20,171 bases of DNA from NCBI GenBank assembly GCA_947649215.1, contig CANSQW010000004.1, positions 1 to 20,171 of the forward strand. Direction: 5' to 3'. Origin of the DNA: an uncultured bacterium. GTDB lineage: Bacteria > Actinomycetota > Coriobacteriia > Coriobacteriales > Eggerthellaceae. Below the pieces are notes generated by a model. That model did no database searches. It was given only the letters and a program-made list of their open reading frames with translations, and was not told the origin of the DNA. Shown piece by piece: positions 4,114 to 19,921 of the stretch (positions within the stretch are counted from its first letter, which is position 1; every line of letters starts with the position of its first letter). A program made the translations under genes and the position numbers.

Positions 4114-4458
4114 ATGGACCAACTTGACAAGCTCGAGACGAGCGTTCGACTCTCTGTGAGAAACCCGCTTTCCGAGAGCACCTCCGTCTTCGGCCGCGGC
4201 GTCGCCGACCTCTGCCTGGGAGTGCGCACCCACGGCTCGCTCAACGCTGCCGCGAAGCACATGGGCATGGCCTACAGCAAGGCATGGCGCATCATCAAGG
4301 ACACTGAGGCCGCCCTCGACATTCAACTGCTGAACCGAGACGGGGCCCACGGAAGCGAGCTTACCGAGGAGGGCGGTCGCATCCTCGACACCTACATCGC
4401 CATCAACGACCGCCTCCAGGCCGAAGCGCAGCAGCTCTTCGCCGAGCTCACCGCCTAG
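4114..4458 (+). CDS. ModE-type one-domain winged-helix transcriptional regulator
   Basis: The product is 114 residues. The helix-turn-helix of the LysR/ModE N-terminal type spans about residues 37-100. It includes GSLNAAAKHMGMAYSKAWRI and the wing LLNRDGAHGSELTEEGGRIL, which mirrors the GG-rich wing of ModE. The C-terminal molybdate-binding (MOP) domains of full ModE are absent, so it cannot sense molybdate in the standard way. Such short ModE-like proteins are often found near molybdoenzyme genes. One such operon lies about 13 kb to the right, but no direct link is visible. GAAGGGA precedes the ATG by 6 bp. The stop codon overlaps the stop of the convergent zinc-ribbon gene on a shared CTAG. 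Confidence 0.85.
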   Translation: MDQLDKLETSVRLSVRNPLSESTSVFGRGVADLCLGVRTHGSLNAAAKHMGMAYSKAWRIIKDTEAALDIQLLNRDGAHGSELTEEGGRILDTYIAINDRLQAEAQQLFAELTA

Positions 4459-5301: not shown

Positions 5302-5805
5302 TCACTCCACCATCCGCACGCGCACCACGACGCTTGCCCACCCCGCCGCATCGGTGCACGACACCATAGCCCATCGACATAGACCCTCTCCTTTCACAAA
5401 CGTCGCGCAGCCCTCCACGCCGCTGGGAACCCCCAGCCAGCCTCGATCAGCCAGCGCTTTCGCCACTACCGCGGCCCTCTCGGCCGCCGCGCCGGGGAAG
5501 ACGAAACCCAGCACCTGCCCGTCTTCGCTGGCATATGACTCCCGGGCACCCTCGGGAGAGAACAGCTCATCGGCGAACCACGTCGGAGCCGAAGGCCCCG
5601 CACGATAGCCGGGAAGCGCCTCCTCCCACGCCGCCTCGCCACCAAGCACAGCCCGCACCAGGGGCGATGCGCGCGGCGGTCCCATCGTTTCAGGCCCCTC
5701 ATCCTTCAGCTGCTGTAACAGCCCCGACACCGCCGTCACCCCCAGCGCCCCCGCCACGAGCGCCGCGGCCGCAAGCGCCCGTCGCCGCTGCCTTCTCTCA
5801 TCCAC
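5302..5805 (-). CDS. Unrecognised membrane-anchored protein in the Tad operon
   Basis: The product is 167 residues with a GTG start 4 bp after AAGGAGG. A basic N-terminus (DERRQRRR) precedes a hydrophobic segment at about residues 9-30, giving an N-in, C-out anchor or uncleaved signal. The outer part contains AAWEEALPGYRAGPSAPTWFADELF, a Gly/Val-rich FVFPGAAAERAAVVAKAL helix region and two cysteines in a C-terminal CATF...GLCRW stretch that could form a disulfide. I recognise no family. It starts 9 bp after the stop of the second TadE-like gene and abuts the DUF192 gene, so a role in assembly, secretion or stability of the pilus is plausible but unproven. Confidence 0.75.
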   Translation of the reverse strand: MDERRQRRRALAAAALVAGALGVTAVSGLLQQLKDEGPETMGPPRASPLVRAVLGGEAAWEEALPGYRAGPSAPTWFADELFSPEGARESYASEDGQVLGFVFPGAAAERAAVVAKALADRGWLGVPSGVEGCATFVKGEGLCRWAMVSCTDAAGWASVVVRVRMVE

Positions 5806-5814
5806 CCGTCCTCC

Positions 5815-6279
5815 TTAGAACAGCATTCCCGGCTTGTATGGATCCACCGTCATCGACACCTGATGTTCCAGGCGCGGAAGGCGCACGCCGAGCACCTCGT
5901 CACGCAGCCCTAGCCCGAAGAGCGTCGGAGCGTAGGTCAGCGTGGCCGTGTAGGTGGCATGTCCAAGCGCGCCGCCCGACACTCCTACGCCCACCGACAG
6001 GTTGCCGCGCCCCAACGCCTCCTCGATCACCGCCCGAACCTCCTCGGCGCTCCGCCCCGCATCCTGCCCGTACGCTGGCGACGCCGCGCAGAGACGCACC
6101 GCGTTGCGCGCCACCCGATCGAAGGCCGCGCAGTCCCCGAAGAACGTGAGCGCGTTCACGGCAACGACTGCCACGATGAGCACGACGGGCAGCACGACCA
6201 GCAGCTCCACGGTCATCTGCCCTCGCTCGTCAGCCAGCACCCGGCTGCGGCGTGGCACGACGCCCGCCATCACCGCCAT
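5815..6279 (-). CDS. tadE: TadE-like pseudopilin (second copy; TadF-like)
   Basis: The product is 154 residues. A class III prepilin-type signal DERG|QMTVE places the conserved Glu at +5 after the cleavage glycine (Gly20), followed by hydrophobic LLVVLPVVLIVAVVAVNALTFF. This is the TadE/TadF pattern of minor pilins processed by the TadV peptidase. The mature part is short, with one early pair of cysteines (GDC, RLCA) and beta-rich GHATYTATLTYAPTLFG. The ATG at 6279 follows GGAGGTGATC and overlaps the end of the upstream TadG-like gene by 10 bp. The partner role in pilus assembly is known for the family; specificity here is inferred from position. Confidence 0.82.
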   Translation of the reverse strand: MAVMAGVVPRRSRVLADERGQMTVELLVVLPVVLIVAVVAVNALTFFGDCAAFDRVARNAVRLCAASPAYGQDAGRSAEEVRAVIEEALGRGNLSVGVGVSGGALGHATYTATLTYAPTLFGLGLRDEVLGVRLPRLEHQVSMTVDPYKPGMLF

Positions 6280-8444
6280 GGCCTGATCACCTCCGTTACC
6301 TCGCCGTACAGGGATCCCACCGCATCGAAGCAGCGCTCCACCAGATCGCGAGCACCCTCAGCAAGAGAGGGAGGCAACGCCACGGTCACGGGAATGGACA
6401 CGCCCCCAACCGGCAGCTCGATTCGCGCCACCTCGATCCCGCGCTCACCAGCCGCTACGGCATCAAGCGCCTCGGCCTCTAGCTCCAGGGCCACCGACGA
6501 GAACAGATCGGCCGTCGGAGACGAGAACCGGAGGGCCTGCTCCCTCACCGAGCGATACGTGGCGGAAAACCGCCCCTCCCCCGCAGCGACCACATGCACG
6601 CTGTTCACGAGCACCGGCCGCAGAGCATTCAGCCGCGCCGGCTGCAAGCCCGCCGTCGCAAAGGCGCCGCGCAGGGCCCCAGCTGCCCACGGGCCTAACC
6701 CGCTCGCGCCGACTAGCGGAATGGAGGCGGCCGCCCCCTCCACGGCGCCCGCGAGCGCCTCTTGGCCCTCCCCATAGACGCGCAGCAGCCCCGACCAGGC
6801 ATCAAGCACGATACGCGCCGCCCCCACCGCCGCGCCGGCATCCCCGCCGAAGCCGTCGAGCAGCGCCGTGACGACCGTCTGTCCCTCGGGCGAAGGATCC
6901 TCAAGCAGCGTCGCGCCCGAGACGGCCGCCCGCGATCCCAGCGTCATGCCGCCGACGACGAACAGCGACTCAAAGCCCTCGTCTGCCGTCACGGGGCGCG
7001 TGCTCACCACCAGCGACACGGCACCCCGGTACCCCGGAGGAGCTGCCTTGATGCGATAGGAGCCTGCCGACCGCGCCACCTCGGCGCACTTCCCGATGAG
7101 GCCTTCGGTCGCTCCCTTAGCCGCCTCCAACTCCGGCGCAAGCCTCTCCTTGGCGACCCGGTACTCGTCAGCCGCCTGGGCTATAGCCGCATAGTGGTAC
7201 TCGAACCCGTTCTCGATAGCCGTGGATGCCGACGCCACGCTCCCAAGGCTCGATGGCGTAAAGTCGCACACAGAGCAGGGTGAGAACTCGCCCTGCTCCC
7301 AGTCGGCAGCCGAGCCCACCCCTACCGCTCCCGCTGCGGCCGGACAGCCAGCCCAAGCGTGCATGGAGCGCTGCTCCCCCTCCGTAATGGGGAATGCTGC
7401 CATGCGGTAGAGCGCGGTCTGCCTCATCTCGTCGGTATTGCGCGGCAGTCGCGGAAAGAAGGCGTCGAAGGAGTTATCCGTCTCTATCACATAACCATGC
7501 GCAAGCTCATCGACGGCGAACCGGTAGAACAGCTTGCGCAGGGCCGACCGAGCCTGCTCCTCCACGCTGTCCGACGCAGGACGCTCCTGAGCCAAACGCT
7601 GCGCATAATAGGCGCGGGCCCGCTTGAGCGGTACCGAGAACGACCAGGCGTCGACGCTGCGATAAAACGGGTTGAGCGACTCATCCAAGGCAGCCAGGTG
7701 ACTTGCGCGCTCGTAGAGGCAGTAGCCGGGATGGGCGCCGCAATCTCGTTCGAAGGCACGCTCCTTGGCCTCTTGCGCCTCGCGCGCCGCCTGCTCTGCG
7801 GCGGCAGCCGCGCGCTCGAGGGCGTCGGACTCCGCCTCCACGGACTCACGCAACACGCCAGCCGCCGCGTCTGCCCCCACCGCAATGGGAGCCCCCTTGG
7901 AGGGAACGAGCATGGCCGCTGCCAGGTAGCCGCCACCCGAGGCGCCGCCCTGGTTGGCGGCCCCCACGGCCGCAGCGTTGGCAGCCGCCAGAAAGGGCAA
8001 GGCGGTCTGGAGCCGATTGAGCCCCCACGCCGCGCGCTCGGCGAAGGCGCTGCGCGCGTCGAGGATCTTCGACCCCAGCTCCACCAGGCGCGCGCCAACG
8101 CTCGCAACGGGCGGAACGCACAGCGCCACCACCCCCGCGCCATAGGTCACCGCCCCGAGCAACGAGAGCGACAGCACCACCGCGTCGCACAGGCGCACCG
8201 CCACCATGAACTCCGCCACGGGGTTCTCGGCAGCCAGCGCCGCCGCGTCGGCGACCTCTTGGATGTCGGCCGCGGCGGCATTCACTCGGTAGACCTGGGC
8301 ACTGCTGAACACAAGCGCCAGAACCAGCAGCAACGCCACGGCCATGCCCGCCGTGGTGAGCCCGTCCTCGTCGCGGACGATCCGGCCCCATGCGCCCGCG
8401 ACAACCCCTTGCGTCACTCGTCGCCGCATCTCATTCATCTCCAT
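6270..8444 (-). CDS. tadG: Large TadG-like Flp pilus-associated protein
   Basis: The product is 724 residues. A single N-terminal membrane segment (AGMAVALLLVLALVFSSAQV, about 32-51) is followed by AAAADIQEVADAAALAAENPVAEF, the segment typical of TadG-like N-termini. More hydrophobic stretches follow near residues 80-115. An alpha-helical, Glu/Ala-rich coiled-coil-like segment spans about 195-240. The rest is extracellular-looking with several cysteines (for example CGAHPGYC, SPCSVC). No von Willebrand domain was recognised. The signal region DEDG|LTTAG lacks the Glu+5 of the pilins. The ATG at 8444 follows AGGAG by 9 bp and overlaps TadE by 14 bp; ATG 8438 is an alternative. It is probably a surface or tip/anchor component, by position. 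Confidence 0.75.
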   Translation of the reverse strand: MEMNEMRRRVTQGVVAGAWGRIVRDEDGLTTAGMAVALLLVLALVFSSAQVYRVNAAAADIQEVADAAALAAENPVAEFMVAVRLCDAVVLSLSLLGAVTYGAGVVALCVPPVASVGARLVELGSKILDARSAFAERAAWGLNRLQTALPFLAAANAAAVGAANQGGASGGGYLAAAMLVPSKGAPIAVGADAAAGVLRESVEAESDALERAAAAAEQAAREAQEAKERAFERDCGAHPGYCLYERASHLAALDESLNPFYRSVDAWSFSVPLKRARAYYAQRLAQERPASDSVEEQARSALRKLFYRFAVDELAHGYVIETDNSFDAFFPRLPRNTDEMRQTALYRMAAFPITEGEQRSMHAWAGCPAAAGAVGVGSAADWEQGEFSPCSVCDFTPSSLGSVASASTAIENGFEYHYAAIAQAADEYRVAKERLAPELEAAKGATEGLIGKCAEVARSAGSYRIKAAPPGYRGAVSLVVSTRPVTADEGFESLFVVGGMTLGSRAAVSGATLLEDPSPEGQTVVTALLDGFGGDAGAAVGAARIVLDAWSGLLRVYGEGQEALAGAVEGAAASIPLVGASGLGPWAAGALRGAFATAGLQPARLNALRPVLVNSVHVVAAGEGRFSATYRSVREQALRFSSPTADLFSSVALELEAEALDAVAAGERGIEVARIELPVGGVSIPVTVALPPSLAEGARDLVERCFDAVGSLYGEVTEVIRPWR

Positions 8445-9057
8445 CGACCCACGCTCCTATCCAGCGAGCCGGATCCCTCCCGGCCTGTGCCCCTGCCGCC
8501 CACGCCGGCTGCGTCGGCATCGATCGCTCAACTGACATCACGATGTTTCCGCGCTCGTTCGCCAACCCCAGCAACGCTGCCCCGCCATCAAGCAGGGGAA
8601 GCGGGCGCACCTCGGTAGATATCCTCACGACCACCCGATCAGAGCGCTCGTCGCCCGTCATCTCGACGCGCCACGTGCAACCGCCCTCGTGAACGTGGAA
8701 GCAGGCCGCCGAGGGAACCGACCCCAGCCGGCGCATGACGTACTCCTCGCAAAGCGCCTCCGCATCGCCCATCGCGTCAGACCGCGTGGCGAGCAACCGG
8801 CACCCCTCTGCCGCTGCCGCCTCCATGACCATGCGGTCGTAGAGGAGAATCCCCGGCTGCAGAAGGAGAAGGGCCAGCAAGAACAGTACCGGCAGGGCGA
8901 AGGCGGCCTCCACCGTTGCCTGGCCGCGCTCGTCCCGCAGACGCCCGGCAACACGGCGCGCCCCCGGCGACGAGCCCGGGCAGAACGGAATCCAACGCCC
9001 CCGCATCCGAGTTATCATGCGGCTGCGACAGACCCCGCAGCCCGGCCTCGATCCCAT
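8431..9057 (-). CDS. tadE: TadE-like pseudopilin
   Basis: The product is 208 residues. After a long basic leader the class III signal DERG|QATVE (Gly45, Glu50) leads into AAFALPVLFLLALLLLQPGILLYDRMVMEAAAAEGCRLLAT, the classic TadE N-terminus. The outer part has a Cys-containing HVHEGGCTW and RVVVRISTEVRPL strands. The start at 9057 follows GGGGAGGAGAGGGAA; downstream ATGs at 9018 and 9009 would shorten the leader without changing the mature protein. It begins 20 bp after the second Flp pilin. TadE is a minor pilin needed for Flp fibre formation and is processed by a prepilin peptidase that is not in this window. Confidence 0.85.
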   Translation of the reverse strand: MGSRPGCGVCRSRMITRMRGRWIPFCPGSSPGARRVAGRLRDERGQATVEAAFALPVLFLLALLLLQPGILLYDRMVMEAAAAEGCRLLATRSDAMGDAEALCEEYVMRRLGSVPSAACFHVHEGGCTWRVEMTGDERSDRVVVRISTEVRPLPLLDGGAALLGLANERGNIVMSVERSMPTQPAWAAGAQAGRDPARWIGAWVDGDE

Positions 9058-9077
9058 TTCCCTCTCCTCCCCCGCCG

Positions 9078-9302
9078 TCAGTAGCAGAACGCATCGGCTG
9101 CCCATCCTGCCGCCATCCCCACATGGTGGGAGGCCGCAGCCAGGGCGTGTTCGACGAATAGGCCCCGTTCAAGCGCAGAGGCAAGCAGCCCACATACCGC
9201 CACGATGACCACCAGGGCCCCGGCCACCACGGCATACTCCACGGTGGCCTGGCCCGACTCGTCCGCTACAAGCCGTTGATGCCAGCGGCTATGGCATCCC
9301 AC
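9078..9302 (-). CDS. flp: Flp-type pilin, second copy
   Basis: The product is 74 residues from a GTG at 9302. The prepilin signal DESG|QATVEY (Gly17, Glu22, Tyr23) is followed by AVVAGALVVIVAVCGLLASAL, the hydrophobic core of Flp pilins. The C-terminus is His/Ala-rich (EHALAAASHHVGMAAGWAADAFCY). No ATG precedes the signal in frame after the first pilin. The GTG lies inside the end of flp1 (37-bp overlap) with GCAGGAG close upstream, implying translational coupling. The start is therefore tentative. The TVEY variant distinguishes it from flp1, so it could be a minor or alternative fibre subunit. Confidence 0.75.
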   Translation of the reverse strand: MGCHSRWHQRLVADESGQATVEYAVVAGALVVIVAVCGLLASALERGLFVEHALAAASHHVGMAAGWAADAFCY

Positions 9303-9514
9303 AGCTCCTGCAGCTTCGGCCGGAACAAGGTGATGGCCAGAATGGCTATCACCACCAGGATGCCCACCAGAATGGCGTACTCCGTCGTGCCCTGTCCGGC
9401 TTGGCAGGACAGCTTCTCCCGCACGCGTCCCGACAGACGCCCCGCCGCGACGCCTACGCGCTCCCAAGCAGCGCGCAGGCGCGCCGCCCCTCCCCCGATC
9501 GCCTTCTCTTTCAC
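9266..9514 (-). CDS. flp: Flp-type major pilin candidate
   Basis: The product is 82 residues. The Flp signature QAG|QGTTEY has cleavage after Gly40 with Glu+5 and Tyr+6. It is followed by AILVGILVVIAILAITLF and a short amphipathic tail ending in INGL, as in Flp1 pilins. The leader of 40 residues is much longer than the usual 15-25 and is Arg/Ala-rich. The GTG at 9514 follows AAAGGAGAAGAGGC. The mature peptide would be 42 residues, normal for Flp. It directly follows tadC (15-bp gap). Confidence 0.88.
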   Translation of the reverse strand: MKEKAIGGGAARLRAAWERVGVAAGRLSGRVREKLSCQAGQGTTEYAILVGILVVIAILAITLFRPKLQELWDAIAAGINGL

Positions 9515-9529
9515 GCCTCTTCTCCTTTC

Positions 9530-10468
9530 TCATGAGAAACCTCCGATAAGCTCCAACATCACCGGCCCCAATACCAGCATCAGCATTGCGGGCAGGATGA
9601 GCACTGCTGTGGGCACCATCATCTTGACCGGGGCCTTCGCCACCTGCTCTTGCTTGCGCGCGCGATAGGCGGCCCGCGCCTCCCTCGCTGCGTCCTCCAG
9701 GCTCTCAGCCAACGAGGACCCGAAGCGCAAGGAGCGCACCACGTTCTCCACCACCCGGCTGAACAGCGCCGAGTCATAGGAGGCGGCGACGCGACGCAAC
9801 GCCTCCTCGCGCGAGGCCAGGCCGCAGCCCCACTGCCGCTGCGCGGCTGCGAGCGAGGCGGAGAGCAGCGTGTCGAAGTGCTCGCCGTAGAGCGCGAGGC
9901 TGCGATCGAACGACAGCCCGCTACGCAGCCCCAGCGCCACCACGTCGAGCATCTCCGAGAGATGCCGCTCCAGTTCCTCCGCCCGCCGCCGGCACCGCCG
10001 CTCTACCGCCCAGCGCGGCGCCCGCGCTCCCCCGATGGCCCCCGCCACGCCCAGCAATGCCGCCGCCTCGGGAGACACGGCCAATCCCGCTAAGGCCCCG
10101 ATCCCCGCGACGGCCGCCATCAGGCGAATGCGCGCCTCTCCGCACGCTTCCGTCGTTACCGCATCCCCCAGGCCCGCCAGCCCCAGATGGTCTTCGAACC
10201 ACGGGGGATGGCGCAACGGAGGGGGCGCCCACGGACGAAAGGAGCCCGATGCCATCTGCCGGGTGACAGACGCCAGGTATCCCGCGACGCGTTCGTCAAC
10301 GGCCTCGCGCCGGCCGGAGGCCGCGGCCTCCGCGCCCCGAACGCCCCGGCGGTGTCGCAGGCGCCGTGCCGCCCTGCCGACGCGCACCCACGCCCACAGC
10401 CCGAGAAGCCCGGCGAACGCGCACGCGCCAGCCGCCCAGGGCCCTATCGCCTGCTCCACACCGGTCAC
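9530..10468 (-). CDS. tadC: Tad pilus inner-membrane platform protein TadC
   Basis: The product is 312 residues. A T2SSF (GspF-type) domain is seen at about residues 170-300, with LSEMLDVVALGLRSGLSFDRSLALY and VVRSLRFGSSLAESLEDAAREARAAYRARKQEQVAKAPVK. Hydrophobic segments flank it near 12-32, 113-140 and 285-310. With TadB it forms the platform driven by the TadA ATPase. The GTG start overlaps the tadB stop as GTGA (4 bp). The C-terminal MMVPTAVLILPAMLMLVLGPVMLEL is typical of TadC. Confidence 0.9.
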   Translation of the reverse strand: MTGVEQAIGPWAAGACAFAGLLGLWAWVRVGRAARRLRHRRGVRGAEAAASGRREAVDERVAGYLASVTRQMASGSFRPWAPPPLRHPPWFEDHLGLAGLGDAVTTEACGEARIRLMAAVAGIGALAGLAVSPEAAALLGVAGAIGGARAPRWAVERRCRRRAEELERHLSEMLDVVALGLRSGLSFDRSLALYGEHFDTLLSASLAAAQRQWGCGLASREEALRRVAASYDSALFSRVVENVVRSLRFGSSLAESLEDAAREARAAYRARKQEQVAKAPVKMMVPTAVLILPAMLMLVLGPVMLELIGGFS

Positions 10469-11433
10469 CCCCTCTCCACGTCGAGCATGCGCCGGACGAT
10501 GACCACGCCCGCCACCTGCATGGCCAGCGCCACGCCCAGCAGCGCAAACCCGGCCGGACTGCTGAAGAAGGGATCGAGGAAGTCCTCGCTGACCAGAGAG
10601 AACAGCGCCACCAGGATGAACGGCATGAGCGTTACGATGCGGGCGGAGAGCTTCGCCTGCGCCGTCTGAACCCGAAGCGACCGCCGCAGCTCCAACTCCC
10701 CCTCCACCGACTCTCGCGCTGCCTCGAGCACCGTGGCCAGACTCCCGCCGCTCTGGTGCTGCACGTCAAGGGACACCGCCACGAACGAGAGCTCTGGCAG
10801 GCCCCGCTGCTCGCGGAAGACCGCTAGGGCCTCGGTGGCAGGGCAACCCGTGTCAAGGCGGGCAGCAGCGCGGGCGAACAGCGCGCCGAGCCCATCGCCC
10901 AGTTCAGCCGCCGTCTGCCGCAGCGTCTGCGACAGGGAGAGCCCCGCCCGAAAACACACCTCCATCGACCGCAAGGCCTCGGGCACCTCCTCGCGCAAAA
11001 GCACCTGCTGCCTCTCCTGGGCCGAGCGCAGCGCACCTGCGAGCGCCACCGCGCCGCAGCCGACCACCGCCGCAGCGCACGCAGCCGACCCGGACGCCGC
11101 TCCCGCCGCCGCGCCTGCCGCAAGGCAGAGGCCGAGCGCCAAGCTGGCCAGCGACTCCGCCGAGGCCAGCATCCCCCGCTCGCCCAGCAACGACTCGGCA
11201 TCCTGCGCCATGCGACGCGCCCACACGCTGCGCAGAAGCACTCGCGCAAGCGGCCGCAGGGGCGCCACGCCATTGCGCAAAAGCCAGGGCACCACGCCCG
11301 GACCACGTGACCCCACGATCGCCTGGGCCCTTCGGGCGCGTTCCACCGCCTCGGCAACCTGCTGGCCCAGCACCAAGCCAGCAGCCGCAGCACCCGCTAA
11401 CGCGCCGCCTGCCATGGCAACTGCCGTCTCCAT
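10465..11433 (-). CDS. tadB: Tad pilus inner-membrane platform protein TadB
   Basis: The product is 322 residues. The T2SSF domain includes EEVPEALRSMEVCFRAGLSLSQTLRQTAAELGDGLG, DVQHQSGGSLATVLEAARESVEGELELRRSLRVQTAQAKLSARI and the final membrane segments LMPFILVALFSLV and AGFALLGVALAMQVAGVVIV. The start at 11433 follows GAGGAGGAGG at 8-bp spacing and overlaps the tadA end by 37 bp. It forms the membrane platform with TadC; the TadB-before-TadC order is the usual one. Confidence 0.9.
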   Translation of the reverse strand: METAVAMAGGALAGAAAAGLVLGQQVAEAVERARRAQAIVGSRGPGVVPWLLRNGVAPLRPLARVLLRSVWARRMAQDAESLLGERGMLASAESLASLALGLCLAAGAAAGAASGSAACAAAVVGCGAVALAGALRSAQERQQVLLREEVPEALRSMEVCFRAGLSLSQTLRQTAAELGDGLGALFARAAARLDTGCPATEALAVFREQRGLPELSFVAVSLDVQHQSGGSLATVLEAARESVEGELELRRSLRVQTAQAKLSARIVTLMPFILVALFSLVSEDFLDPFFSSPAGFALLGVALAMQVAGVVIVRRMLDVERG

Positions 11434-12725
11434 CGATCCACCTCCTCCTCATCGATAAGGCCGGCTCGCACCGCCTGGCTCACCCACGAGGGCTCCGCGA
11501 GCCACTGCCCGCAAGACTCCCCCAGCCCCCGCTCGTAAAGCGGAACGAGTTCACAGGCACGGCGGCGCGGGTCAAAGGACACCTCGGCCGCAGCGGATAC
11601 GAAACGCGCTCCGTCGCGAGCGCGCGTCGTCTGCACTATCAGGTCGAAGGCGTTGCCTATCTGGGCCTCCACCGCATCAAGCGGCAGATCGACCGCGTAG
11701 CGCACCATGGTGACCAGGCGGTCGACAACCTCCTGCGGTGCATTGGCATGCAACGTGGTCAGCGAGCCCTCATGGCCCGTGTTCATGGCCTGAAGCATGT
11801 CGAGCGCCTCACCCCCGCGGCATTCGCCGACGATAATGCGATCGGGCCGCATACGCAGCGCGTTGATGACGAGCTCGCGGATAGTCACCTCGCCGGTTCC
11901 CTCCGCGTTACTGGGCCGCGCCTCCAGCCGCACTACGTGGGGGTGCTCGGCGAACTTCAGCTCAGCCGAGTCCTCGATGGTGATAACCCGCTCATCATGC
12001 GGGATATGGCATGACAGCGCGTTCAGCAGCGTGGTCTTGCCGCTGCCCGTCCCACCCGAAACCGCTACGTTCTTCCGCGCGATCACCGCCCACACAAGCA
12101 TCTGACGGAAGTCGTCGCCGAATGACCCGCCCGCCGCCATCTCCTCAAGAGTCATGACGCGGCGTGAGAAGAGCCTGATGGTCAGCAGCGGCCCGTCGGG
12201 CGAGAGCGGCGGGATGATGGCGTGCACGCGATGCCCCTCGGGAAGCCGCGCGCTCACCGTCGGCGAGGCCTCGTCGATGCGGCGTCCAAGCGGCCCGATG
12301 ATGCGGTCGATGAGCACGCGCACCTGCTCGTCGCTTGCGAAGGCCGCGGAGCTGCGATGCAGTCGGCCCTGACGCTCGTAGTAGATGCTCTGCGTCCCGT
12401 TGACCATGACCTCGGTCACCGTGTCGTCCTCAAGAAGCCCGTCAATGGGACCCATGCCGAAGACGACGTCCACGAGGTCGCTCACCAGGCGCTCACGATC
12501 CTCGGAGGACACGCGCTCCCAGCCGCCCTCGGCGAAGGCCTGGCGGCAGGCCGCACGGAGCTCGTTGCGCGCACGCTCGGGGTTCTCGGCCATCAGCGCG
12601 GCCACCTTCTCCATGGCAAGGCGCCTGCGAACGCTGCGACGCAGATCCTCCACCGTCGCCCCGCGGGGCTCAACCGCAGCGCCGCATGACGCCCCCGCTG
12701 CCCGGGCACGCTCGAGGAGGGTCAT
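11397..12725 (-). CDS. tadA: Tad pilus assembly ATPase TadA (CpaF)
   Basis: The product is 442 residues of the secretion-ATPase (VirB11/GspE) superfamily. An N-terminal domain of about 130 residues contains [27 protein letters not shown]. The RecA-like domain has Walker A GGTGSGKT (224-231), Asp box [11 protein letters not shown], Walker [13 protein letters not shown] (about 296-307) and His box [12 protein letters not shown]. It is a cytoplasmic hexamer that powers pilin assembly. The ATG overlaps the tadZ stop by 4 bp (ATGA). All catalytic motifs are intact. Confidence 0.95.
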
Positions 12726-14395
12726 CGTCCAGCTCCTGCCTCAATCGCAACCGACGCCTTGGAACGCCTTCCCCACAACCCCGCCTTTCGTCCGCCGCGC
12801 GTACGTCCGCGTCGGCGGTCGGGCGTATCGGGAGCTGACGGCTCCGATGCCGGCGGCGCGACCTTGCGCCCTTTCCTGCCACGCAGGCCGCCGCTCGCCT
12901 CGCCATCCGGCAAGAGCCCTTCGAGCACGGAAGCCAGGCTCGCGCACAGGTCGTTGCGCTCAGCCGCGAGGGCCGCCGCCATTCCCGAGCCCAAGAGCTC
13001 CTCAACCGCCGTGCCGCCGTCACGCAGCTCCGAGACGGGCGCTCCCTGCAGAGCGCAGGACACATCGAGCGCAGTCAGTGGCGCGCCCTTGGCGCAGCGG
13101 TTGAGGAGGAAGAAGAACGAGCCCGTGGCGATGCCGCAACGCCCGCAGAGATCGAGCGCATGGCGGCAGGCCCGCACCGACGAGGCCCGCTGATCCACCA
13201 GGAAGAGCGTGCGCGCGCTACGCTCGATGATGACGGCCTGCGCCTCTGACCAGTTGGCCCCCGTATTGACGAAGACCACGTCGAAGCGCGTCAAAGCCGC
13301 CTCCATGAGACGCGGTAGCTGCCCCGCCAGCTCCTCCGCCTGCTCCGGGCGATGCGGCGCGGCCACAAGCGCCGGAGTCCCGTCTGCGGCCAGTTCGTCA
13401 AGACGTCGCAGATCGGCCAGCGCCTCGTCCACCGTGAGCGCATCAGGAGCCCCCAGCAGATCCGCCGCGTCCCCGAACTGAAGATCCCCGTCGACCAGCA
13501 GCACCCGCAGCCCCCGAGCCGCCGCCAGGCAGGCGCTCAGGACGGCGACGGTGCTCTTCCCGGCACCCCCGCTGCCGCTCACCACAGACACCACATAGGC
13601 CGGCGTCTTTGCAGCAGGAGACTCCCCCGTCATGGCGTGGGACGCGGGCGGGACTGCGGGAACGGGGGCAGGGGCGGCAGGCGGTGGCGCGAGCTCCTGG
13701 GAGCCGCCGACGGCCACCGGGGGCAGCGGCGCGGTATCGGCCGCCGACAGGGCGGGCGGCGCGGAGGGCACGGGCGGTGGTGCCGGCACAGGGGCTCGGA
13801 AGGCCGCAGAAGGCTCCGATGCAGGAGCCTGCGTGGCACCTGCCGTCCCGGCGAGCACAGGCGGTGGCTCTGGGGCGAGCTCCTCCTCCAAGGACGACGA
13901 CTCCCAGAAGGGCTCATCCGCCCCCGGCAGGGGCCGGCGGGCGCTGATCGTCGGCAGGGACTCGCCGGTGGGGTCGGGCGGAGGGGCGGACGCCTCGGCC
14001 GCGCGCAGGGCCGCCGCGCGGGCCGCTGCTCCCAAACGGCGCCTTTCCTCGTGGGCGACGCGTCGTGCCAGCCCCTCAGGCGAGAGCATCCCCGTGATTC
14101 CCGCCGCTTGGGCTCGGCTGACAGCTGACCCACTGAGGTTCTCGGACACCAGGTAGATGGGGATGGAGGGGGCATCTCGTCGCAGGCCCGCTGCCAGGTT
14201 GACGGCGTCCATCTGATCGCTTGAGGCAACCCAGGCTTCCTCGACGGGGTCGCCTCGCCTCAGACGATCACGCGCAGCGGCTGCGCTTGAAAACGCCTCC
14301 AGCCAGGTTCGTCGCGACCACGCCCTCCCGTCCAACCCCAAGGAAGAGGGATCGGCAAGCGACGCGCTATCGGCGCACAGCAGTATAGTGCCCAT
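12722..14395 (-). CDS. tadZ: TadZ/CpaE-like localisation ATPase
   Basis: The product is 557 residues, long for the family. The N-terminal 120 residues look like an atypical receiver-like domain (TILLCADS, IPIYLVSENLSGSA, AQAAGITGML). A Pro/Ala/Glu-rich linker follows at about 135-265. Then comes a MinD/ParA-type ATPase with Walker A SGSGGAGKST (about 273-282), LLVDGDLQFGDAADLLG and FVNTGANWSEAQAVI. The C-terminus is basic and low in complexity. TadZ proteins place Tad machinery at a cell site, usually the pole. The start at 14395 follows AAAGGA and lies 35 bp after cpaB. Family assignment is firm; the linker is unusually long. Confidence 0.9.
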   Translation of the reverse strand: MGTILLCADSASLADPSSLGLDGRAWSRRTWLEAFSSAAAARDRLRRGDPVEEAWVASSDQMDAVNLAAGLRRDAPSIPIYLVSENLSGSAVSRAQAAGITGMLSPEGLARRVAHEERRRLGAAARAAALRAAEASAPPPDPTGESLPTISARRPLPGADEPFWESSSLEEELAPEPPPVLAGTAGATQAPASEPSAAFRAPVPAPPPVPSAPPALSAADTAPLPPVAVGGSQELAPPPAAPAPVPAVPPASHAMTGESPAAKTPAYVVSVVSGSGGAGKSTVAVLSACLAAARGLRVLLVDGDLQFGDAADLLGAPDALTVDEALADLRRLDELAADGTPALVAAPHRPEQAEELAGQLPRLMEAALTRFDVVFVNTGANWSEAQAVIIERSARTLFLVDQRASSVRACRHALDLCGRCGIATGSFFFLLNRCAKGAPLTALDVSCALQGAPVSELRDGGTAVEELLGSGMAAALAAERNDLCASLASVLEGLLPDGEASGGLRGRKGRKVAPPASEPSAPDTPDRRRGRTRGGRKAGLWGRRSKASVAIEAGAGR

Positions 14396-14430
14396 GGCAG
14401 TCCTTTCCGCCAGCTAAAGCCGGCTCGTCT

Positions 14431-15096
14431 CTAGGCTTCGGCCCTGGCGGGGGCCTTGGCATCTGTGGGAAGCACGAAGTAGATCTCGAGGTTCTGGGCC
14501 GCCGCCACCAGCTCCTGCACCGCCGCGGGCGCAACGGCAAGCGTCACCCACTCCACCGCCCCTGATGCGAGCGCTCCCGACGTGTCGGTGCTCGTGGCCA
14601 CGACCAACGCGCGCGGAACGATCAGCTCGGTAGCGCTCGCGCCCGTGGCGTAGACGTCGGCGCGCATCCCCGCCTGCAGAGCACCGCCCACCGCCTGCAC
14701 CTCACGCGCAGGGACGCTCACGGCCGCAAGTCCCTCGGGGATATCCAAGGTCAGCGCCTGTCCCGCGCCGATACGACGAACCGTGAGCGCCTCCCCCTTC
14801 AGAATGGCCGCGGAGGCCTGCTTGCCCACCGCCTCCTCGCGCACGGTGACCACGCCGTCGGGCAGCAGGTCGGCCACCCACAGCCCCATCGCCACCGCCC
14901 CCTCGTCGATGGTCTCACCAGGCGCAATGTCGCGTCGGGCCACGCACACCTCCAGCTGATCGCCGCCGTAGCGAGCCAGCGCCTCGGCGCGCGCGGCCTC
15001 GGCCCGGTCGCTCACCTGCACGAGAAACGCACCCATGCAGATTGCGCAGCCTGCGGCGCAGGCGATGCCCACGGCCAGGGATCGACTTCGCTTCAT
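14431..15096 (-). CDS. cpaB: Flp pilus assembly protein CpaB/RcpC
   Basis: The product is 221 residues. An N-terminal membrane segment (LAVGIACAAGCAICMGAFLV, about 7-26) is followed by a SAF domain (about 48-112: VCVARRDIAPGETIDEGAVAMGLW, KQASAAILKGEALTVRRI) and an RcpC-like part with LAAVSVPAREVQAVGGALQAGMRADVY. In diderms RcpC works with the secretin. No secretin is seen here, as expected for a monoderm, where CpaB homologues still head Tad operons. It is the first clear gene of the operon. GGAGG precedes the ATG by 5 bp. A short possible upstream frame overlaps its start by ATGA (see findings). Confidence 0.88.
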   Translation of the reverse strand: MKRSRSLAVGIACAAGCAICMGAFLVQVSDRAEAARAEALARYGGDQLEVCVARRDIAPGETIDEGAVAMGLWVADLLPDGVVTVREEAVGKQASAAILKGEALTVRRIGAGQALTLDIPEGLAAVSVPAREVQAVGGALQAGMRADVYATGASATELIVPRALVVATSTDTSGALASGAVEWVTLAVAPAAVQELVAAAQNLEIYFVLPTDAKAPARAEA

Positions 15097-15723: not shown

Positions 15724-16245
15724 TTAACGATAGTCGCTGGCCTGATCGCCTCCGAGAAGCTTGGACTGCTCCTTGAGGTGGCGAGCCTTCTCGGCAGCGG
15801 AAACGAAGTCGGCGGGGGCGGCCTCGACGGAAATCAGCTCTACCTCGAAGGCGAGCGTCTTGCCGGCGAGGGGGTGGTTCAGGTCGAAGGTGACCGAGCC
15901 GTCCTTGACGGCGATGACCGTAGCGGGCATGGGCGCGCCGTCCTCTCCGCTAGCCAGCCAGATGCGCTTGCCCACGGCGATGTCGCGCGCGGGGATCTGC
16001 TCCTCGGGGATGGTGGTGACGTAGTCCTCCAGGTACTCGCCGTAGCCATCGTACTCGCTGACCGTGAACGCCTTCTTCTCGCCGGGCGTCCCCTCCATCT
16101 CGAGAATGGCCCGCTCGAAGCCGTCGATGGTCATGTCCATGCCCGTCTGGAACACCAGGGGCGCGTCGGCGGTCGCGCAGCCGAATACGCTGCCGTCCTC
16201 GAGCGTGCCGGTATAGGCCAGGGTGACGGTGGTTCCCAACTCCAT
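15724..16245 (-). CDS. slyD: SlyD-type FKBP peptidyl-prolyl cis-trans isomerase
   Basis: The product is 173 residues. FKBP halves (VTLAYTGTLEDGSVF; FQTGMDMTIDGFERAILEMEGTPGEKKAFTV) surround an insert-in-flap chaperone domain (about 68-120). The hallmark VTFDLNHPLAGKTLAFEVELISVE follows. SlyD proteins fold proteins and help maturation of metalloenzymes such as hydrogenases. The C-terminus here is a charged helix without the His/Cys-rich metal tail of E. coli SlyD, so a nickel role is unlikely. The ATG at 16245 follows GAAGGAG. It lies in line with the molybdoenzyme operon, 113 bp after the 108-aa gene, so a folding role for those proteins is possible but not shown. Confidence 0.9.
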   Translation of the reverse strand: MELGTTVTLAYTGTLEDGSVFGCATADAPLVFQTGMDMTIDGFERAILEMEGTPGEKKAFTVSEYDGYGEYLEDYVTTIPEEQIPARDIAVGKRIWLASGEDGAPMPATVIAVKDGSVTFDLNHPLAGKTLAFEVELISVEAAPADFVSAAEKARHLKEQSKLLGGDQASDYR

Positions 16246-16358: not shown

Positions 16359-16685
16359 CTACCAGGGCGCGCCGGCAGGGTTGAGCTTGCGCCGCGGCGA
16401 CAGCTCGTCGCTGAAGAGAATGCAGTAGCGCAGGCCCTTCAGCGTGACGTACAGGCTGGCTATCTCGTGCCGGCCGCCATGGTTGAACACCTCGTAGGTA
16501 AGGTATTCCCGCTCGATCATGGGCCCGTAGACGTCGCTCCCCTCTATCTTGTCCAGCAGCAGGTTGGTGGGCTGGCGGCCCAGCTCGTCCTGCTTGAGTG
16601 AGATGCTGTACAGGATGTCCTCCTGCTCTGCGGTCAGGCGGCCGAGCTCCTCGATCTCCGCCCTGATCTCCTCTTCTGTCGCCAT
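16359..16685 (-). CDS. Unrecognised 108-aa protein
   Basis: The product is 108 residues, MATEEEIRAE... to ...LNPAGAPW. The first 40 residues form a charged, heptad-like helix (EIRAEIEELGRLTAEQEDILYSIS). The second half has alternating strands (YLTYEVFNHGG, EIASLYVTLKGLRYCILF). No known domain, signal peptide or membrane segment. AGGAGG lies 10 bp before the ATG; the codon use is that of a real gene (strong GC at third positions). It sits between the molybdoenzyme group and slyD, with its own probable upstream region, so it is not certain that it shares their transcript. Function unknown; a small dimeric accessory protein is a guess. Confidence 0.75.
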   Translation of the reverse strand: MATEEEIRAEIEELGRLTAEQEDILYSISLKQDELGRQPTNLLLDKIEGSDVYGPMIEREYLTYEVFNHGGRHEIASLYVTLKGLRYCILFSDELSPRRKLNPAGAPW

Positions 16686-16872: not shown

Positions 16873-17148
16873 CTAGATGCCGGCGAAGCCCTTGGAGGGA
16901 TCGCTGCCGCCAACGCCCTTCTCGTCGTCGCCGGCCTCGTTGCCGGTGCGCTTCGTGGAGGTGTAGCCACCCCAGGCGCGGGCGATGAACTTGTCCTTCA
17001 CCCAGAAGATCTGGGCCTTCATGAGGTCGGCCTGGGTGATGCCCTCTTCCGCCAGGGCCTCGTCTTTGGTCTTGCCCTCGGCCACGAGCGTGTTCAGCAC
17101 CTCGGCGGCCTCGGGAGCATCAAGAGCCAGGAATTCATCTCGGGTCAT
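16873..17148 (-). CDS. Unrecognised 91-aa protein downstream of the molybdoenzyme genes
   Basis: The product is 91 residues starting MTRDEFLALDAP. The ATG follows AAGGAGG at 5-bp spacing, an excellent site. Residues 9-45 (EAAEVLNTLVAEGKTKDEALAEEGITQADLMKAQ is the helical region) look like consecutive short helices resembling a helix-turn-helix. They are followed by aromatic/basic FWVKDKFIARAWGGYTSTKR and a flexible, Gly/Asp-rich tail. I recognise no family. It follows the beta-like gene after an 80-bp gap holding a strong hairpin, and is followed by a terminator, so it is probably the third gene of the molybdoenzyme operon. It could be a regulator or assembly factor; both are guesses. Confidence 0.78.
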   Translation of the reverse strand: MTRDEFLALDAPEAAEVLNTLVAEGKTKDEALAEEGITQADLMKAQIFWVKDKFIARAWGGYTSTKRTGNEAGDDEKGVGGSDPSKGFAGI

Positions 17149-17228: not shown

Positions 17229-17588
17229 CTACAGCTGGAACAGAACCATCGGGCGGTCGAACTCCGCCATCTTGGCCTGCATCTCCTCAACGGTGCCGTA
17301 GTACAGAGACGCGGACTCCTCGACCTGGACGGCCAGGGGACGCTGGCCGGCCTTATCGCCGTTGGTGCCCCAGTGGTCGGAGAAGATGGACGTCGGGCAG
17401 GGAAGGTAGAACCACTCCCAGTCGTCGCCGTCGTTGCCCTCGCCCTTCTTGAAGGGGCCGACCTGGACCTCCTTGATGCCGAACTGATCCAGGGGAAGGC
17501 CGAGCTCCTCCTTGCAGGCGATCTCGGCGGCATGGTTGCCGGAGAAGAAGGTGTAGTCAACGAGCAAAGCGTATTTCTGATCTGCCAT
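17229..17588 (-). CDS. Molybdoenzyme beta-like subunit, degenerate 4Fe-4S protein lacking cluster cysteines
   Basis: The product is 119 residues. The overall pattern is that of a short ferredoxin-type beta subunit of the DMSO-reductase superfamily. LLVDYTFFSGNHAAEIACKE stands where VDY..C..C..C...C is expected, followed by GLPLDQFGIKEVQVGPF, LPCPTSIFSDHW and SLYYGTVEEMQAKM. From knowledge of the family, the first cluster motif would use positions 15, 18, 21 and 25; here they are Phe, Asn, Ala and Cys. Positions 69 and 72 are Phe and His, and 86, 90, 94 are Ala, Glu and Ser. Only two cysteines (25, 64) remain in the protein, too few for any 4Fe-4S cluster. GAAAGG precedes the ATG; the gene starts 20 bp after alpha. 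It probably serves as a structural subunit. Confidence 0.82.
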   Translation of the reverse strand: MADQKYALLVDYTFFSGNHAAEIACKEELGLPLDQFGIKEVQVGPFKKGEGNDGDDWEWFYLPCPTSIFSDHWGTNGDKAGQRPLAVQVEESASLYYGTVEEMQAKMAEFDRPMVLFQL

Positions 17589-17608
17589 GTGTGTCACTAC
17601 CTTTCGGG

Positions 17609-19921
17609 TTAGTCCTGGTCGAGGCTGCGGACACGGCGAGCGTTGCACATGACGCCCTTATAGGGCGCGCCGAAGCCGAGCTTGCCGACGTTGAAGTGCG
17701 GCACGAGGCTGTTGAAGTTGGACTTCCACACGCCGAACAGGTTGGGCTCCTCGCCGTCCTGCTCGGGGAACCACCAGCCGTGGGCGCAGTTGAGGATGCC
17801 GGGCTTGATGATCGGGGTGATCTCCGCCTTGAAGCGGGCCTCGCCGAACATGTTGTAGACCTCGACCCAATCGCCGTCAGTGATGCCGTACTCCTTGGCA
17901 GTCTCGGGGTTGATCTGAACCCACGGCCACGGATCGATCTGGCGCAGGGACGGCACCTGACGATGCTCGGAGTGGAAGGAGCTGTAGCGACGCGAGCCAG
18001 ACGTGGTGATCAGCGGATACTGACCGGCGAAGTCAGGCTTGCTGATGGGGCTGTAGTTCGGCTCCTCGTAGTAGGGCAGCGGATCCTCGCCCCAGGATTC
18101 GTAGAGGATCGAGTAGGCCTCGATCTGGCCGGTGATGGTGTTGAAGCCGGGCTGGCCGTCGAAGCGCAGCAGGCCCTTCTCGTACTTCTCGTACTCGAAG
18201 CCATGGGCGCCGGGCTGGTACAGGCCGAGCTCCTGGAAGCCCTTCCAGTCGAAGCCGAGCTCCTTCAGCTGATCGCTGTAGAAGTCCTCGACCGCGGTCT
18301 CGAGGGCGGCGAGGTCCAGGGACTTGCCGTCAGCGGGCTTGTACCACGGCCACCAGCTGGGGTTCAGGCGCTGGCCGAACATGAGGCAGATCTCCACGTC
18401 GGACTTGGTCTCGCCAACGGTGAGCGCCTTGTTCATGGGGCCCATGAACACGGTGTTGCGGCCGTAGTGGGTGAGCACGATGCCGTTGTGCTCGGCCCAG
18501 GTGGACATGGGGAGGAAGTAGTCGCCCACCGCCATGGCCGTCGGGGTCATGGTGATGTCCTGCACGACCACGAACTCGAGCTTCTGCAGGGCCTTGTGCC
18601 AGCGCTTGGGCTGAGCCGAGCAGGTGGGGGTCAGGAAGTTGGAGCTGTTGAACCAGCCCATCTTCAGGGCGTAGGGCTCGTCGGTCTCCATGGTGTTGAG
18701 GGTCTCGTCAGGCTGGGTGGTGGCCATGCCCGTGGACAGGCCCGGCCACGCGGCGGCGCCGATGCGCTTGGACCACACCTCGTCGTCCATGGCACCGCGC
18801 TGCTCCATGCGCCACTTGCCGAGCAGGGCAGACGGGGGGCCGAGGGTCAGGCCGCCGGGACGGTCGATCGAGCCGGCCAGGGCAGCCAGGACGATGAACG
18901 CCTGGGACAGCTGCACGCCGTTCTTGTTCTGGTCGAAGGCCAGGCCCCAGGCCCAGCCGATCGGGCGCTCGGTGCCGATGATGTGGGCAACGCGCTTGAT
19001 GTCCTCGACCGGGACGGTGGTGATCTCGGAGACCTTCTCCACCGGGTACTCGGCGGCGCGGGCCTTGATCTCGTCGAGGCCGTAGATCCAGTTCTCAGCG
19101 AACTCGTGGTCGTACTCGCCAGACTCGAACATGAGGTTCATGAGGCCGAGGGCCAGGGCGGTGTCGGTCTGGGGGCGAACCTGCAGGTTGATGTTGCCGT
19201 TGCGAGAGCCCACCCAGGTGATGCGGGGATCGATGGAGATGATCTTGGTGCCGCGCTTCATCATGTCAACGAGGCAGTGGCCGAAGAAGCCGTCGCCGTT
19301 GGAGGGCAGGGGCTCCTTGCCCCAGACCACGACCCACTTGGAGAGGGTGTAGCGGGGGTCGTCATAGCTGCCCGGCAGGTGGCCGGCGTAGTCGAGCTCG
19401 GGATAGCCCGCGCCCAGCACGTAGTCGGAGATGGAGCAGCGGGGGCCGTAGCAGGACCAGCCGGACTGGGTGTAGCAGCAGTTGGGGGACTGCAGCACCG
19501 AGAACGTCAGGGCATAGTAGAAGATGCACGCCTCGCGGCCGGTGCCGCCGAAGCAGACGATGGACTCGGGGCCGTAGTTCTCCTGGTAGTAGCGCACCTT
19601 CTCGCAGATGGTGTCGAGAGCCTCGTCCCACGTGGTGCGAACCCACTTGTCCTTGCCGCGATCCTCGTAGGCGCGCTTCATCGGGTAGATGATGCGCTCG
19701 GGGGCGTAGGTGTACTCGCGCAGGGCGAGGTTCATGGCATTGACGCGACCGGTGGTAATCGGGTTGTCGTCATCACCCTCGATGCGGATGAGCTCGCCGT
19801 CCTTGGTCACGACCTTGACGCCGTATCCCACGGGGTGGGACCCCGGAGGGGACCAGGTGTTGGAGCGAGTGACGACCGTGCCGTCCTCCATTACGGTTTG
19901 CCACTGTTTACCGTATGCCAT
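17609..19921 (-). CDS. Molybdopterin-dependent oxidoreductase-superfamily catalytic subunit lacking the N-terminal Fe-S site
   Basis: The product is 770 residues, DMSO-reductase superfamily, binding bis-MGD molybdenum or tungsten. Family blocks include SPPGSHPVGYGVKV, YAPERIIYPMKR, WDEALDTI and FGGTGR. A probable metal-ligand region is SGWSCYGPR (Ser156/Cys157). The C-terminal cofactor-binding domain (about 625-765) contains HSEHRQVPSLRQIDPWPWVQ. No cysteine occurs before residue 106; positions 28, 33, 61 and 64, where relatives carry cluster cysteines (GCH..GC, LC..C), are Ser, Tyr, Asn and Asn. There is no Tat signal, so it is cytoplasmic. The chosen ATG follows AAGGAA; an upstream ATG at 19951 lacks support. 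Relatives include pyrogallol transhydroxylase and gut catechol dehydroxylases; the substrate is unknown. Confidence 0.93.
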   Translation of the reverse strand: MAYGKQWQTVMEDGTVVTRSNTWSPPGSHPVGYGVKVVTKDGELIRIEGDDDNPITTGRVNAMNLALREYTYAPERIIYPMKRAYEDRGKDKWVRTTWDEALDTICEKVRYYQENYGPESIVCFGGTGREACIFYYALTFSVLQSPNCCYTQSGWSCYGPRCSISDYVLGAGYPELDYAGHLPGSYDDPRYTLSKWVVVWGKEPLPSNGDGFFGHCLVDMMKRGTKIISIDPRITWVGSRNGNINLQVRPQTDTALALGLMNLMFESGEYDHEFAENWIYGLDEIKARAAEYPVEKVSEITTVPVEDIKRVAHIIGTERPIGWAWGLAFDQNKNGVQLSQAFIVLAALAGSIDRPGGLTLGPPSALLGKWRMEQRGAMDDEVWSKRIGAAAWPGLSTGMATTQPDETLNTMETDEPYALKMGWFNSSNFLTPTCSAQPKRWHKALQKLEFVVVQDITMTPTAMAVGDYFLPMSTWAEHNGIVLTHYGRNTVFMGPMNKALTVGETKSDVEICLMFGQRLNPSWWPWYKPADGKSLDLAALETAVEDFYSDQLKELGFDWKGFQELGLYQPGAHGFEYEKYEKGLLRFDGQPGFNTITGQIEAYSILYESWGEDPLPYYEEPNYSPISKPDFAGQYPLITTSGSRRYSSFHSEHRQVPSLRQIDPWPWVQINPETAKEYGITDGDWVEVYNMFGEARFKAEITPIIKPGILNCAHGWWFPEQDGEEPNLFGVWKSNFNSLVPHFNVGKLGFGAPYKGVMCNARRVRSLDQD

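Follow-up and report, generated by a model that had tools for sequence, protein, structure and literature searches.

The 20,171-nt stretch of DNA analysed here (the window) comes from contig CANSQW010000004.1 of an uncultured Eggerthellaceae bacterium (GCA_947649215.1) and encodes a two-subunit molybdoenzyme, in which the iron-sulfur (Fe-S) cluster ligands of both the catalytic alpha subunit and the small beta subunit are, as judged from aligned sequences, replaced by other residues, and in which these replacements are fixed. We propose that the pair is an orthologue of the hydrocaffeic acid dehydroxylase of Gordonibacter pamelaeae (Gp Hcdh, Unk-9A/B), that it is free of clusters and that its molybdenum (Mo) is fed by an external donor; taken as a whole, we regard this explanation as likely. 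What is new is the architecture, a variant within an established enzyme class in which neither subunit has cluster sites.

The alpha subunit (17609..19921, reverse strand; 770 amino acids) is a predicted bis-molybdopterin guanine dinucleotide (bis-MGD) catalytic subunit, which we assign to the Gp Hcdh (Unk-9A) orthologous group, and the beta subunit (17229..17588, reverse strand; 119 amino acids) is the putative Unk-9B orthologue. The initial annotation of this DNA had stated that alpha has no cysteine in its first 105 residues and that beta keeps a ferredoxin-type framework with its cluster positions replaced, and both statements were borne out: the first cysteine of alpha is residue 106, and beta retains the ferredoxin-type fold with one of eight cluster cysteines left and seven replaced. 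The vacated site in alpha consists of N21, S28, Y33, N61 and N64 (19730..19861, reverse strand), where relatives with a cluster carry mostly Cys and, at the second position, mostly Asp. A contig scan of relatives gave 51 loci, of which 41 are cluster-free (L039-L079) and 10 cluster-bearing (L080-L089). The five residues are the same in 39/39 alphas of the cluster-free family (33 loci, the window and five database proteins, with near-identical rows retained and eight of the 41 loci dropped because the alpha N-terminus lies past the contig end), and 27 other alphas have Cys at these positions in 19, 8, 24, 24 and 23 cases, with Asp at the second position in 17. Arg63, which lies two residues past the Cys aligned with the last cluster Cys of acetylene hydratase, is conserved in 25 of the 27 other alphas and replaced by Met or Leu in all 39 family members. 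Cys157 (codon 19451..19453, reverse strand; motif SGWSCYGPR), which aligns with a Cys of acetylene hydratase and which we take to be the metal-binding residue and predicted Mo ligand, is invariant in the family (39/39) and in the other aligned alphas (27/27).

The cluster-free betas (41 loci and the window) are similarly uniform and have at most one of the eight cluster cysteines in 42/42 cases. N18, A21, F69 and A86 are found in all 42, F15 and E90 in 39 each and H72 in 38, and the sole remaining cluster cysteine, C25, is present at 41 of the 42 loci, the other locus having 0 of 8. Cys occupies all eight positions in the 32 other betas of the same alignment, namely 20 paralogues from the window genome and 12 betas from L080-L089. 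Of 85 database homologues of beta, the 60 with a length of at least 105 amino acids were aligned, and 53 of these have one Cys and seven have none at the eight positions. Given this near-uniformity at the former ligand positions, we conclude that the cluster loss is fixed and that the replacement residues are constrained. The joint loss in both partners goes beyond the situation in pyrogallol transhydroxylase, as the initial annotation had suggested, and extends to all 39 alphas and all 42 betas, and it is highly probable that the alpha-beta complex contains no Fe-S clusters.

The window genome, which shares its genus code with Adlercreutzia faecimuris, has 62 matches to PF00384, and a search with beta gave 23 hits at E<=1. 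In a second search of its retrieved contigs, 21 short betas including that of the window were found, most of them adjoining an alpha, and the 20 others keep all eight cluster cysteines; two weak matches (contigs C19 and C124) were left out of this comparison. A cluster-free beta is encoded in 38 of 396 Coriobacteriia genomes (matches to beta that score more than 180 bits; the next match scores 104 bits). The pairwise ratio of nonsynonymous to synonymous substitution rates (dN/dS; Nei-Gojobori method, own script, window against 11 relatives per gene) is low, ranging from 0.052-0.231 for alpha and from 0.045-0.227 for beta, in agreement with the earlier proposal that selection maintains the pair, and the occurrence of the same losses across 42 loci together with low dN/dS speaks against a lone decayed copy.

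In an 83-row alpha tree constructed with a quick method, the cluster-free family (34 of its rows paired to a cluster-free beta, the other five with beta unknown) forms one clade, with a Shimodaira-Hasegawa-like approximate likelihood ratio test (SH-aLRT) value of 100, which is nested among cluster-bearing enzymes of Coriobacteriia and Bacillota. The family was again recovered as one clade (SH-aLRT 100) in a 42-row alpha tree from which the N-terminal trait columns had been removed. The nearest paralogue pair in the window genome (contig C181:1081-3354, L020) has lost the alpha motif and has a beta with all eight cysteines; together with L080, L109, L110 and L117 it makes up a second group with the alpha motif lost (degraded in L117) and an intact eight-cysteine beta, which resembles the architecture of pyrogallol transhydroxylase. 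The L021 alphas keep their cysteines, and their motif starts with Y and not with W. P0146, an alpha of another lineage, has also lost the cluster motif (GHG, GRLD), which is retained in its sister P0148. A single origin of all alpha-cluster losses including P0146 was rejected by the approximately unbiased (AU) test (p 9.6e-7), and a single origin shared by the window family with the L020 group is compatible with the data (AU p 0.25), the tested groups having been named after sight of an earlier tree. The cluster of alpha has therefore been lost at least two times, if it was not regained. Loss of the beta clusters was seen in the cluster-free window family only.

To judge from alpha length, hosts and regulator, the window pair is almost certainly an orthologue of Gp Hcdh. 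Unk-9, which was renamed Gp Hcdh, is described as a 770-amino-acid catalytic subunit with an accessory subunit, neighboured by a membrane LuxR protein (Unk-9R) with 44% identity to HcdR of Eggerthella lenta; the reported hosts are Gordonibacter, Paraeggerthella hongkongensis RC2/2 A, Ellagibacter isourolithinifaciens DSM 104140 and Raoultibacter massiliensis, and the sequence-network cut-off for the group is 72% identity (PMC11585353). The family member of G. pamelaeae (L041), which we equate with Gp Hcdh by inference and not by accession, has an alpha of exactly 770 amino acids, and the window proteins match this locus with 93% identity in alpha and 91% in beta, with alpha exceeding the published cut-off. 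The published hosts recur among the cluster-free loci (L039-L041, L046, L053), Raoultibacter at the genus level via L048 (R. timonensis) and G156. The latter genome, with the genus code of R. timonensis, contains a second cluster-free pair (G156:C2:355500-375000, L099), whose alpha is 78% identical to that of the window. P. hongkongensis has five alpha matches at E<=1e-50, of which three were compared with six alphas of other hosts, and only the window type is more than 72% identical to these; the two non-window-type alphas among the three reach at most 61% and were rejected as candidates for the true Unk-9. The LuxR protein encoded near the L041 alpha has a single E. lenta match at E<=1e-60 (G070), with 45.0% identity over the alignment, or 51.0% when counted on aligned pairs. 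In the reverse search with this E. lenta regulator, the best match in 4/4 genomes was a LuxR protein encoded 4.0-7.4 kb from a family alpha, and the next-best matches did not exceed 82 bits, same-gene pieces excepted. The E. lenta regulator itself is encoded around 7 kb from a 1193-amino-acid alpha with a twin-arginine translocation (Tat) signal; E. lenta Hcdh is given as 1193 amino acids long (PMC11585353), and hcdR is reported as not directly adjoining hcdh. The co-located LuxR gene was seen at the G. pamelaeae locus, and the window contig stops before the regulator and transporter region.

Gp Hcdh is reported to convert hydrocaffeic acid to 3-hydroxyphenylpropionate with methyl viologen/dithionite, with a kcat of 28.3 per min, a Km of 0.24 mM and one Mo per protein; after its deletion, ATP is no longer formed in a hydrocaffeate-dependent manner. 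The enzyme was purified under air (PMC11585353), which is compatible with the absence of labile clusters, but no proof of it. By analogy with the Gordonibacter enzyme, the window pair would be a hydrocaffeic acid reductase. Since neither alpha nor beta has cluster ligands and Arg63 is replaced by Met or Leu, the internal electron wire is missing. The ancestors of the pair were alpha-beta enzymes whose alpha carried one cluster and whose beta carried two, and the ligands of these clusters were then replaced in both subunits. We hypothesize that the result is a soluble two-subunit Mo-bisMGD enzyme for the reductive removal of a hydroxyl group from hydrocaffeic acid, in which Mo would take its electrons straight from outside, from a small carrier in its reduced form, as happens in the cluster-free dimethyl sulfoxide and trimethylamine N-oxide reductases. 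This carrier could dock on alpha alone or at the alpha/beta face, or enter via the substrate funnel. Beta would persist without clusters in a structural or docking role, and delta, perhaps also gamma, two small proteins encoded next to the pair, might be accessory factors for assembly or for the new electron hand-over. Direct feeding of Mo from outside is the best-supported route and, in our view, a probable one. More tentatively, one might speculate that the pair is a respiratory Mo reductase devoid of any internal wire, that beta is a cofactor-free seat or gate, that the emptied cluster pockets in alpha and beta now form fixed polar or aromatic sites, that Mo is loaded on direct contact with a flavin, a quinol or a hydride carrier from outside, and that delta, in many strains with a leucine-rich repeat (LRR)-VWA-MoxR module, serves hand-over or assembly.

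A special case of direct feeding would be a docked ferredoxin, which replaces the lost wire and uses the empty beta scaffold as its seat. The ferredoxin-type fold kept by beta and the nearly fixed residues at its former ligand positions would suit such a role, but the next stop, the alpha cluster, has been lost as well, and none of the 10 recurring neighbours is a ferredoxin by Pfam, ferredoxins elsewhere in the genomes not having been searched for; we therefore consider this route rather unlikely. It is clearly less probable that the pair is a non-redox or self-contained enzyme, that is a transhydroxylase, hydratase or isomerase, whose Mo needs no outside electrons in the steady state. This was suggested by family resemblance, and the initial annotation had read the coordinated loss as a sign of a non-electron-transferring enzyme. 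As the likely orthologue is a reductase, which accepts electrons from methyl viologen and supports hydrocaffeate-dependent ATP formation (PMC11585353), this reading is unsupported and these three reaction types were set aside, whereas the further suggestion of the annotation, direct feeding by a small carrier, remains.

The closest known precedents differ from the window pair in other respects, too. Pyrogallol-phloroglucinol transhydroxylase (4v4c) has an alpha without an N-terminal cluster and a ferredoxin-type beta that retains three 4Fe-4S clusters, whereas the cluster sites of the window beta are lost. Its Mo ligand is Ser according to a published table, in contrast to Cys157 of the window alpha, so that this enzyme fails as a template in both the ligand and beta. 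Reductases of the DorA/TorA/BisC type likewise have an alpha without an N-terminal cluster (DorA in the same table), but their ligand is Ser (published table). They have no ferredoxin-type beta, and in the cluster-free dimethyl sulfoxide and trimethylamine N-oxide reductases electrons are passed straight to Mo. Acetylene hydratase (2e7z) is the closest solved structure to alpha by sequence and fold and keeps its 4Fe-4S cluster, the ligands of which are absent from the window alpha. Like the latter, it has Cys at the Mo/W ligand position, and it hydrates acetylene (published table). The Gordonibacter-type enzymes Dodh, Cldh and Eadh1-2 share with the window pair a small cytoplasmic bis-MGD alpha and a small adjoining subunit (PMC7028382, PMC11887054, PMC12771579), but by published description the latter is an Fe-S protein, whereas the window beta has one of the eight cluster cysteines. 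With Gp Hcdh, the window pair shares the 770-amino-acid alpha, the two-subunit composition, the hosts and the HcdR-related LuxR neighbour seen at the G. pamelaeae locus; no difference was found in the motifs examined, the window copy being known from its sequence.

Several points weigh against an orthologue of Gp Hcdh that is cluster-free and fed from outside. The orthology is drawn from length, hosts and regulator and not from the Gp Hcdh sequence itself. Gordonibacter-type enzymes are described in general terms as having an Fe-S beta, which is a predicted electron carrier (PMC11887054). The main text of PMC11585353 gives no iron content for Gp Hcdh, the word 'iron' occurring 0 times in it. 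No statement of Fe-S-free Gp Hcdh subunits was found in the open-licence literature consulted, the supplements of which lay outside the search and may hold one; the catalytic subunits from Gordonibacter are described as being without the Fe-S motif that their Eggerthella counterparts have (PMC11574389). No electron-donor gene was identified, and with a genome that is 57% complete and a contig that ends 250 bases upstream of alpha, the regulator and transporter are outside the view. Finally, several alpha cysteines are enriched in the family compared with the 27 other alphas, namely C106 (33/39 vs 2), C123 (28 vs 0), C148 (36/39 vs 2), C216 (30 vs 1) and C712 (39/39 vs 4/27). To judge from the alignment, these could form an unusual new metal site, and a hidden Fe-S cluster might be built from C106, C123, C132, C148, C149, C216 and C712; but C712 is the sole invariant residue among the strongly enriched ones, and C132, C149 and C157 are also present in 13/27, 17/27 and 27/27 of the other alphas, respectively, making such a cluster very improbable. 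Although decaying genes commonly lose their cofactor sites and many of the records are metagenome-assembled genomes, the chance that the gene pair is decaying or mis-assembled is negligible, as isolate genomes of six genera (Gordonibacter, Slackia, Adlercreutzia, Paraeggerthella, Ellagibacter and Raoultibacter) carry it, dN/dS is low in alpha and beta and, if the orthology holds, unk-9A/B took the top two places by transcription among the genes of G. pamelaeae in one cohort (PMC11585353).

Beta is followed by gamma (16873..17148, reverse strand; 91 amino acids), for which the Pfam search gave no family and NCBIfam two chance-level matches far below the cut-offs (E 0.17 and 0.2). Next comes delta (16359..16685, reverse strand; 108 amino acids), whose L050 homologue (10935-11282) had no Pfam match at 0.01. 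Their dN/dS values range from 0.025-0.648 for gamma and from 0.068-0.407 for delta, with two of the eleven delta pairs saturated. Gamma and a gene for a zinc-ribbon-like protein (CxxC...CxxC), which in relatives lies directly upstream of alpha, are also found beside some cluster-bearing relatives. Delta co-occurs with the cluster-free pair: it is present in 41 of the 396 genomes, comprising 37/38 with a cluster-free beta (G395 being the exception) and 4/358 without (G272, G355, G364 and G372), and at 53/58 loci with a cluster-free pair (same-genome duplicates counted), compared with 0/39 loci with other alpha-beta pairs, some of which are short or duplicate. The G355 contig (L141) starts just ahead of a family-type gamma and delta, and alpha and beta were therefore probably cut off. 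The delta match in G372 is near the contig start, and in G272 and G364 delta lies within an LRR-VWA-MoxR row.

The common order at many loci is LuxR, major facilitator superfamily transporter, zinc-ribbon gene, alpha, beta, gamma and delta, and farther downstream follow genes for a BspA-like LRR protein, a DUF2201/VWA protein and a MoxR AAA+ ATPase-methyltransferase fusion. Homologues of the L050 copies of LRR, VWA and MoxR were found at 28, 27 and 27 of 40 other loci scanned, respectively; a search of the window's genome, which is 57% complete, gave no VWA protein. VWA and MoxR were rejected as strict partners, since MoxR homologues occur in 107/396 genomes (E<=1e-60) and since L041, L043, L044, L046, L048 and L066 have delta without an adjacent VWA gene. 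The set of delta, LRR, VWA (DUF2201) and MoxR(-methyltransferase), in which delta has its own gene or forms a fusion with the LRR protein, is also free-standing without an adjoining enzyme (L135-L140), and delta may therefore be part of a remodelling module that was recruited to the cluster-free enzyme, which we offer as a lead only. Trigger factor and FKBP genes are found near the pair at some loci. An FKBP-type prolyl isomerase (15724..16245, reverse strand; assigned by Pfam on the L059 homologue) is also encoded in the window, and its homologues lie near the pair at a number of loci, its link to the enzyme being uncertain. Also encoded in the window are the Pro/Ala/Gly-rich C-terminal tail of a gene truncated at the contig end (20084..20170, reverse strand), a small protein that resembles the DNA-binding N-terminal half of molybdate regulators of the ModE type (4114-4458, forward strand) and, judged by eye from the translations, a Flp/Tad pilus-like run (5302-15096, reverse strand) with TadE-like, TadB/C-like and CpaE-/CpaB-like proteins and a CpaF-like ATPase.

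Hydrocaffeic acid is a metabolite of coffee and vegetables. Among catechol dehydroxylases, Gp Hcdh is reported to be the most transcribed one in samples of the human gut (PMC11585353). Provided that the orthology holds, this most transcribed catechol dehydroxylase would have no Fe-S cluster in either subunit, contrary to the description of its class, and this cluster-free enzyme would nonetheless serve anaerobic respiration. The delivery of electrons to a Mo reductase without an Fe-S relay would then be testable on an already purified enzyme and in a genetically tractable gut bacterium. In addition, the relatives provide a graded series, with clusters in both subunits, lost in alpha only or lost in both, in which the dismantling of an electron wire can be studied.

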